A stretch of 36,781 nt of DNA from Candidatus Poribacteria bacterium (GTDB lineage Bacteria; Poribacteria; WGA-4E; WGA-3G), in assembly GCA_009845545.1 (NCBI GenBank), contig VXZK01000371.1, positions 1-36,781 on the forward strand. The letters run 5' to 3'. A program made the position numbers and the translations under genes. Numbering within the stretch: position 1 is the first letter of the stretch; each line of letters begins with the position of its first letter. A model generated the notes under the pieces. The model was not told the DNA's origin. It did no database searches and saw nothing but the letters and a program-made list of their open reading frames with translations. Shown one piece after another: positions 3,950 through 19,850 of the stretch.

Positions 3950-4114
3950 CAGGGGCATTCAATTTTAATAAATTGTTGGATTGGACATCTTTTTTCCAGG
4001 ATTCGCTGCGAAATGCTGCGAAAATTTCTGCGGTTTTTCTTAAAACATAACATATATTAAGTATTAACACCTGCGAAAAGGACAACATCAAAAACCTACA
4101 ATTGAATGACCGGG
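3950..4114. mobile_element. Decayed copy of a MITE-like element
   Basis: Left end CAGGGGCATTCAATTTT (3950-3966) and following ~35 bp resemble the left end of the 17888-18017 element; right end ACAATTGAATGACCGGG (4098-4114) is an imperfect inverted repeat (13/17). Flanks GCTGTGGC / GCTATGGC could be a decayed target duplication. Confidence 0.4.
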
Positions 4115-14987: not shown

Positions 14988-15163
14988 CAGTTGTCTCCTC
15001 CCAAATTTGGTATTATAGTAGATTCTATAATTACTTGGACATTCAACATCGGTTCGGTTAGGGGATTTAGTCTGGGAATAGACTAAATCCATTCCTTGTA
15101 TTACATTCCGAACCTACCGGGGGTTGAAAGTGTAAACTTATTTTTCGATTTTACTATAAGTGT

Positions 15164-17664: not shown

Positions 17665-17887
17665 AGTTATTCCTTTTAGCGTAGTTCGGCAGATGTCAAA
17701 GTCTAATGCGAAGCACCCGGATTACAGTTTGTCGGGCGAGTCAGATAGAAAACTTTTGATTGCATGAATTCCGAAGGTGTGCTAAACTTTTAGTATAAAA
17801 ATCGAAAAGTTACGAACCTGTACATATCTTCAGTATTAAAAGTATATCACAAAGTATTGAACAGTTGCAAATTTTTTGGATAGGAGC

Positions 17888-18017
17888 CAGAGCCATTCAA
17901 TTTTAAGAAATTATTGTATTTTACGTCTTTTTTACCGGTGCCGGTGCGGTTCCAAACCGCACCTACCGGGCCTGGTGGTAAAGATTCGATCGGAAAATGG
18001 AGAATTGAATGGCTCTG
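17888..18017. mobile_element. 130-bp MITE-like non-autonomous element with TIRs and 10-bp TSD
   Basis: TIRs CAGAGCCATTCAATTTT (17888-17904) and AGAATTGAATGGCTCTG (18001-18017), 16/17 complementary; flanked by perfect direct repeat GGATAGGAGC (17878-17887 and 18018-18027). No ORF inside. Confidence 0.8.
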
Positions 18018-18035
18018 GGATAGGAGCTGGTAGTT

Positions 18036-19850
18036 GTGCAGACGGATGCTTTTAGCGCGGGAAGTGTACTATCGTGGCAAAGGACACGAGATGCAGCAGC
18101 ACATCAGGCGGAATTACGACGGAGCAAACACACATGGATTGCGTTGCCGTCCGCCTTATTGCAAACACGCTATCAGTTGAACGCCACAGATTTATCCTTC
18201 GGTAATGCGGAAACAGCGACAACGATCCAATCCTTATTTCGGGACTCCCAATTATCAGGCGGGATAGAATTTAATCAATACTATTTAATAGCGGAACCGC
18301 ACGCGGCTGAGCCGTGTTACAACATCAGCGATTACGTTCAACGCTGTGTGGCAGGTGACCTCACAATTGCAGAACGGCTTCGTGGACGGACAGTGATTAA
18401 CCTCTATCAGACAGAAGGAACAGCAGACGACCTGCTAAGTGACCAAGGGGTATCTCAGTTTATAGAGCGACTGTTGAGAGGCTACTTAAAAACTCACGGC
18501 AAGCAACACCTCATCGGTTTTACCTGTGAACCACCGAAGTTTTTGTCTTTAACGAGCGTCTTAGGAGCTGGGACATCATCAGTGCCGTGGAGTCCTGTCC
18601 TACTGGAGGCAGCGGAAGTGACACTCGCAGCGTACCTGCCGTTGGTGTTCTACGAAACTTACAACTCAGGGGCTGTCAGAAACACTTTTTGGCAAGCATT
18701 GACGACGCGATTCGCGACCTGCTTCCTTCAAGGCTTGCGCGACTTTTGCCATCAAGAAGGACTGCGGTTCGCTTTAAACCTCTCGGCGAGTGCTAAGACA
18801 TTGGAGTTTGAGTTAGGATCCATGCTCGCAGAAGTAGATTTTCCTATTCTGAACACCACCGAAATAGATACACCGAAGCGATTCGTCGTTGCTAAATGGG
18901 CATGCAGCAACACGCAACACGCCGGTATTGCCCGAAAAAAAAGCAACAAAACGGATGCGCGTACACCAACATCGCGACTCCTTGAAGATGCAAGTCTCGG
19001 TTTCAATCTATGGATGAACAGGAACAGTGCCGCTGATAGTGTCCCACAAGGGTTAGCAATCGGCTATCCGAAGCGACCAATCCTGATGATAGCACCGACG
19101 CAGAGCCTCTGGACAAAACCCGATGAGAAATCGTGGAGCGGCATCACAAAAGCGTGGGGGTGGTTGTGCCAAAGTGTATGGGAACTGGGTTACGACTTCA
19201 GAATTGTCTCGGAGCAGGAACTCGGTGCCGCAGAGATTATAGATGCTGCCGTCGCGAGAAAACGGGGTTGTAAAAGGGGGGGACTCTGCTTCCCTAACAA
19301 CGGAACGGACACCAGAGAGATTTATAACGTTGTGTTGCTACCGAGTTGCATATCGCTTCAAGAAGAAACCGTCAAACGCCTAAAGGCATTCACGAAAGCA
19401 AAAGGTAGATTGATCGTAGATGAACCTACGCCGTATCTACTGAACGGTCAGATCGGACTTGAACCGTATCCACTTGAACAACTTATCTTTGGACGACGCA
19501 CAACGATCTTGCGAGGTCCGCCGGACGAGAAAGCAGTGAAACTTGAAAAACGTCTCGGAAAATGGGTGCCTCGTATCGTCTCAGTGTATGTAAAACCGGA
19601 GAACGATCCGACGGATAGCGTCCTCGTACTCCATAGAGAAGCAGAAGCCTCCGAAATTTTCTATCTGTTCAACACCAGCAGTGAACCGATGGAGACCTTG
19701 ATTGAGATACAACGGAAGGCGGCGCGTGTTTCGGAGTTTGATCTGTTTCAATCAAAAAAAGAAAGCATTGCGTTTTGGCACGCTGATGAGAAGACATATC
19801 TAAATAGTGTATTCACACCTAAACAGGGACGACTCTTCGTGGTATCATAG
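18036..19850 (+). CDS. Glycoside hydrolase-like protein (GH106/alpha-L-rhamnosidase-like), tentative
   Basis: 604 aa, GTG start with AGGAG SD at 18022. FTCEPPKF, NTFWQALTTRFATCFLQGLRDFCHQEGLRFALNLSAS, ILMIAPTQSLW resemble GH106-type hydrolases. Confidence 0.5.
   Translation: MQTDAFSAGSVLSWQRTRDAAAHQAELRRSKHTWIALPSALLQTRYQLNATDLSFGNAETATTIQSLFRDSQLSGGIEFNQYYLIAEPHAAEPCYNISDYVQRCVAGDLTIAERLRGRTVINLYQTEGTADDLLSDQGVSQFIERLLRGYLKTHGKQHLIGFTCEPPKFLSLTSVLGAGTSSVPWSPVLLEAAEVTLAAYLPLVFYETYNSGAVRNTFWQALTTRFATCFLQGLRDFCHQEGLRFALNLSASAKTLEFELGSMLAEVDFPILNTTEIDTPKRFVVAKWACSNTQHAGIARKKSNKTDARTPTSRLLEDASLGFNLWMNRNSAADSVPQGLAIGYPKRPILMIAPTQSLWTKPDEKSWSGITKAWGWLCQSVWELGYDFRIVSEQELGAAEIIDAAVARKRGCKRGGLCFPNNGTDTREIYNVVLLPSCISLQEETVKRLKAFTKAKGRLIVDEPTPYLLNGQIGLEPYPLEQLIFGRRTTILRGPPDEKAVKLEKRLGKWVPRIVSVYVKPENDPTDSVLVLHREAEASEIFYLFNTSSEPMETLIEIQRKAARVSEFDLFQSKKESIAFWHADEKTYLNSVFTPKQGRLFVVS

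Follow-up and report, generated by a model that had tools for sequence, protein, structure and literature searches.

A probable young MITE with ISAs1-type ends and a REP core, inserted at the Shine-Dalgarno sequence of a gene in Candidatus Poribacteria

Candidatus Poribacteria are sponge symbionts. In a 36,781-nucleotide stretch of DNA from a member of this group, referred to below as the window, the sequence holding the Shine-Dalgarno (SD) motif of a 604-aa gene is present twice, and the two copies are separated by 130 bp. This locus raises the question of what the intervening DNA is, from which parts it was assembled and what its arrival did to the gene. The gene (18036-19850, plus strand, GTG start) is conserved in Poribacteria, and its protein gave no sequence match in Pfam, NCBIfam or PDB. 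The two copies of GGATAGGAGC, at 17878-17887 and 18018-18027 on the plus strand, agree at 10 of 10 positions. The downstream copy contains AGGAG at a distance of 9 nt from the GTG (18036), and most orthologs of the gene retain GTGCAGACGG. The intervening element (17888-18017, plus strand) opens with CAGAGCCATTCAATTTT at 17888, closes with AGAATTGAATGGCTCTG at 18017 and has no listed ORF of at least 100 aa. Its left terminal inverted repeat (TIR) is CAGAGCCATTCAATTTT (17888-17904, plus strand) and its right TIR (18001-18017, minus strand) reads CAGAGCCATTCAATTCT; they match at 16 of 17 positions. By taking in one flanking base per side, a repeat finder arrives at 16 bp with 100% identity.

A preliminary description of this DNA had interpreted the structure as a miniature inverted-repeat transposable element (MITE) with 16/17 TIRs and a perfect 10-bp target-site duplication (TSD) that copied the SD sequence and left the spacing to the start at 9 nt. 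Direct reading of the sequence agreed with each of these points. Copies elsewhere also supported the MITE itself. The genome, a draft of 5.57 Mb in 401 contigs, contained 10 further near-full copies with 72-92% identity and many partial ones. Copies were detected in all 35 same-genus relatives searched. Beyond the genus, eight genomes from two other genera were the only ones in the wider order with copies, and none was found in the rest of the class sample. The TIR pattern matched 2-90 sites per genome, and the reversed control pattern matched none. In a set of 51 full copies drawn from several genomes, the flanks agreed at 88% or more over 9-10 bp in 36 and perfectly in 29. When flanks were paired across different copies, none of 2550 pairs reached 80%, so the agreement is far above chance.

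Empty sites were identified as well. The exact pre-insertion sequence AAATTTTTTGGATAGGAGCTGGTAGTTGTGCAGACGG with a single GGATAGGAGC was present in three relatives (OX639973.1, SB0675_bin_22 and G029); upstream of the ortholog in OX639973.1, the sequence runs ...GTTGCAAATTTTTTGGATAGGAGCTGGTAGTTGTGCAGACGG. Most other relatives displayed similar single-copy sites at the orthologous position, and none of the relatives examined carried the insertion there. Therefore, the insertion appears to be young and confined to the lineage of the window as far as sampled. In two relatives, the end of another half-element (...AATGGCTCTG or similar) lies upstream of the 604-aa ortholog, so this intergenic region has been struck more than once.

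The preliminary description had named a fixed intergenic structure without further copies or empty sites as the finding that would speak against a MITE, and the opposite was found on all three counts. A functional RNA leader or attenuator that merely resembles a MITE is therefore extremely improbable. The leader with the insertion does fold strongly in prediction (z = -3.9), as such a structure might, but the element is absent from this position in every relative examined, exact empty sites exist, and its copies are dispersed in unrelated places with TSDs. There was no Rfam match, and no terminator-like site created by the insertion was found.

No transposase for the MITE had been noticed in the window, and this stands: the ISAs1 models PF13808 and NF033564 had no match in the whole draft genome (401 contigs), so that the source of transposase either acted in the past or sits in an assembly gap. 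ISAs1 elements generate duplications of 8-10 bp and tend to have CAGGG ends, and for this reason the ends and TSDs of ISAs1 elements in relatives were tested. ISAs1-family genes (PF13808) were present in 17 of 38 same-genus genomes. Twelve complete ISAs1-family elements of 1334-1346 bp in relatives shared the ends of the MITE (for example, CAGGGTCATTCAATT / AATTGAATGACCCTG), thus providing the transposase with matching ends that the preliminary description had proposed to look for. Perfect TSDs of 9-10 bp flanked nine of the twelve, such as GGATTGAGC, CTGGTTATGC and AGGCTGAGAT. The 392-aa transposase of one complete element, the only one tested, scored 210.7 bits against NF033564 (ISAs1) with a cut-off of 70. 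Apart from the arms of the intermediate form described below, the MITE and the ISAs1 elements are alike only over about 15-22 terminal bp and their interiors are unlike. The common ends and the 9-10-bp TSDs point strongly to an ISAs1-type enzyme as the missing transposase, which would have catalyzed the insertion.

A second relative of the MITE, not mentioned in the preliminary description, was identified in the window at 3950-4114 (165 bp, plus strand). Its left arm is 83% identical to the left arm of the MITE over 46 bp, while its right arm resembles the ISAs1 left end (83-85% identity over about 59 bp). A TTCGCTGCGAAAT tract within it also occurs in the ISAs1 elements, close to their right end. 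The repetitive extragenic palindrome (REP) described in the next paragraph is absent from it. A further copy of this form, 82% identical across its full length, was found at another locus (L013). The flanks of 3950-4114 display only a degraded repeat, CTGTGGCA / CTATGGCC. To judge from its arms, the 165-bp form seems to be an ISAs1 element with an internal deletion, and as a REP-less sister it would connect the MITE to its parent IS.

The center of the MITE has a different source, which the preliminary description had also not mentioned. A REP is defined by a GT(A/G)G head followed by a palindrome with a short unpaired middle (Nunvar et al., 2010; PMC2817692), and the core GTAGGTGCGGTTTGGAACCGCACC (17943-17966, minus strand) has a GTAG head and a 9-bp stem with the loop TGG, a structure that a DNA fold supports. 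A strict REP pattern had 74 matches in the own genome and its reversed form had none. In 117 distinct REP copies the nine stem pairs were 94-100% Watson-Crick; pair 4 was T-A in 60, G-C in 50 and broken in seven. This indicates a stem maintained by paired changes, with the covariation concentrated mainly in one pair and two subfamilies and thus reflecting few independent changes. The REP hairpin flanked all 12 genes of one RAYT group in relatives (11 of them on both sides), three of these loci having been picked for nearby REP matches and nine on transposase score alone. It flanked none of the other 28 Y1 genes, which included other RAYT groups. Three of the twelve genes were tested against the RAYT model NF047646 and scored 121-128 bits (cut-off 80). 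The REP-flanked RAYT genes sit together in a tree that does not settle a single origin. The MITE has a single REP, not the two inverted REPs per unit of a REPIN.

A PF01797 search of the own draft detected no intact RAYT gene; it yielded one broken RAYT and two IS605-type elements. A hairpin next to the broken gene was considered as that gene's repeat and rejected, since it is part of a TA-flanked element that interrupts the gene. This 103-bp element with a REP splits the RAYT-type gene at 1420-1522 of locus L140 (contig C294); another GTAG hairpin, GTAGCAGGCACGCGCCGCGTGCC, forms the tandem repeats that flank the gene itself.

Since the core of the MITE is the REP that flanks RAYT genes, and the same core was found alone and inside other elements, a RAYT (HUH/Y1) transposase might move the MITE through this core, the ISAs1-like ends being incidental. 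We consider this very unlikely. Transposition of the IS200/IS605 type produces no larger target duplication (PMC2817692), whereas the MITE family has 9-10-bp TSDs exactly at its CAG/CTG ends. Complete ISAs1 elements have the same ends and TSD lengths, and the 165-bp form exists without a REP. On the sequence evidence, the MITE is instead a chimera, in which a REP core lies within ISAs1 ends.

The REP was apparently captured once, before the family spread. It occupied one position in one orientation with the same junctions in all 51 aligned copies, including five that fail a simple REP motif test yet align alike, and this constancy favors a single capture. Repeated insertion of REPs into existing MITE copies, or exchange between copies, could account for the differences among close copies in the loop (AGGA, CCA or GCA) and in pair 4 (G-C or T-A), for the same core in other element types, and for the different hairpin cores of TA-flanked elements with related arms. 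Nevertheless, the identical placement in 51 of 51 copies makes repeated capture unlikely.

The surroundings of REPs in the own genome are diverse, and the same core lies within types of element whose ends are unrelated. Of the 74 REPs, 10 were enclosed by two arms of the ISAs1 type; another 17 were in a second type of element, whose ends are TTGACACCTAT, and seven in a third (GATGAAG...CTTCATC); 15 had no recognized arms and the remainder had one arm. None of 2000 random sites had both arms of any type. Loose arm patterns over-called, and therefore this stricter count with its random-site background was relied upon. A survey of 800 kb of OX639973.1 gave only 16 REPs.

In one further type, the TA-flanked elements (TATAGTA...TACTATA), one copy contained the REP of the MITE and further copies had different hairpins. 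At six loci, TA-flanked MITEs with related arms have other hairpins at their center, of at least two kinds (GTAGGGGTTGGGT..ACCCAACCCCTAC and GGCGAGGTT..AACCTCGCC), possibly by core swapping. A remnant in the window at 15107-15157 (CCGAACCTACCGGGG...TTTTACTATA), between genes of Uma2 and MacB type, corresponds to the right half of a REP-bearing element of the TA-flanked type.

ISAs1-type elements of 163-778 bp contain further repeats nested inside the REP loop. They were examined as the autonomous partner of the MITE by walking from half-ends, and were rejected since they carry nested repeats and encode no transposase. At eight loci, the REP loop contained a recurring insert of roughly 31 bp (ATGCAGRTCGCATTTGGGCGTGTACGCCGCA) as well as other repeats, and several of the longer ISAs1-type elements with such inserts retain flank repeats. 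Another element, here called B-type (TGATGAAG...CTTCATCA), lies between REP-like stem arms in six of six copies. At locus L013, from about position 1640, a B-type end joins a broken DDE_3 (IS630-like) transposase to a REP arm; the B-type element is possibly an IS that targets REP loops. Three tandem REPs with 65-bp spacing were located in a repeated tract, GATGCTTTATCCTCTGTTGGATCTGATGG, at 1501-1690 of locus L017 (contig C253), which is perhaps coding.

A broader reading of this diversity is that Poribacterial REP hairpins serve as exchangeable cores for transposon arms of ISAs1, TA-flanked and other types; families with unrelated ends would share one REP or exchange different GTAG hairpins at one position. 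New MITE families would then originate by shuffling of arms and cores, and one element could answer to a DDE transposase at its ends and to an HUH transposase at its core. We offer this as a tentative idea that is at present rather doubtful.

As for the gene, two promoter-like blocks lie upstream of the insertion and both are conserved in orthologs. The first (17760-17788, plus strand), TTGCAT-17-TAAACT with TG before the second hexamer, is conserved throughout the genus and is the putative promoter of the 604-aa gene. The second (17841-17870, minus strand), TTGCAA-18-TATACT with TG, probably serves the divergent MacB-like permease genes, whose products have MacB_PCD/FtsX domains; its first hexamer is 7 bp from the upstream TSD copy. 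The preliminary description had suggested that the insertion replaced the upstream leader or promoter, and this found no support: the whole native upstream region including 17760-17788 is intact and lies 140 bp farther from the start. The insertion lengthens the leader by 140 nt and leaves the SD-to-start spacing the same.

Rewiring of the gene, by loss of its promoter or leader or by a promoter brought in with the MITE, could be imagined from the position of the MITE between the promoter-like block and the SD and near the first hexamer of the divergent promoter, but it is improbable. Apart from the intact upstream block, the only match of sigma-70 type that the region contains lies outside the MITE, on the minus strand, with a count at chance level, and the accessibility of SD and start is predicted to be nearly the same with the insertion. 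Thus, the insertion was probably tolerated, with a modest effect on expression as judged from these predictions.

Overall, a young non-autonomous MITE with ISAs1-type ends and a captured REP core, whose insertion duplicated the SD sequence, is very probably the right explanation of this locus. Its ancestor would have been an internally deleted ISAs1 element, a stage from which the 165-bp form may survive. The center of this ancestor would then have been replaced by the REP that accompanies a Poribacterial RAYT (HUH/Y1) gene, and the REP-cored form would have multiplied as a unit. At the 604-aa gene, an ISAs1-family DDE transposase acting in trans would have recognized the element by its CAGRGYCATTCARTT ends and inserted it at GGATAGGAGC through a staggered 10-bp cut, with repair duplicating those 10 bp. 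The SD of the gene was part of the target, and so the downstream copy still provides an intact SD, whose distance from the GTG is unchanged. A transcript that starts at the conserved upstream promoter would have a 5' UTR lengthened by 140 nt, with a strong stem in it.

The source of the internal sequence of a MITE is rarely traceable. Here, the parent IS, the REP-less intermediate, the MITE with its REP core, the RAYT to which the REP belongs and the empty sites all come from one genus, which makes it possible to trace and test how a chimeric MITE was assembled. The locus is also a clear case in which an insertion in a ribosome-binding site is survivable through its own target duplication, and a REP/RAYT system is documented in Poribacteria. 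In the open-access literature we found no earlier account of an ISAs1 MITE with a REP core and no direct precedent among ISAs1 MITEs; REPs, a REP/RAYT system or MITEs in Poribacteria were likewise not found there.

Compared with known systems, the element resembles ISAs1-family MITEs (type I, mobilized in trans by an IS that shares their ends) in its TIRs, 9-10-bp TSDs, non-coding sequence and length of about 130 bp, and in having matching complete ISAs1-family elements, here in relatives. It differs from them in that its center is a REP and not IS-derived, and in that the partner transposase was not found in the same draft genome. Its core resembles the REPs of REP/REPtron systems (Nunvar et al., 2010, PMC2817692; PMC3733652) in the GTAG head, the 9-bp palindrome and the loop of 3-4 bases, as well as in occurring in tens of copies and flanking RAYT genes; however, the Poribacterial REP is locked in a DDE-type transposon and travels with it. 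The passages of PMC3733652 on REPs in long palindromes describe GTAG-15 of A. variabilis, GTAG-23 of T. roseum and CGTC-1 of H. neapolitanus, which share with our case the regular embedding of a REP in another inverted repeat. Section 7 of that paper presents the outer palindrome without a transposase or TSD, whereas the Poribacterial outer element is identified as ISAs1-type and has TSDs and empty sites. Contact between REP and IS is likewise a feature of IS-in-REP systems such as ISPpu9 (PMC8450116), to which the B-type element between its REP-like stem arms may be compared; there the IS lies within the REP, while in the Poribacterial MITE the REP lies within the mobile element.
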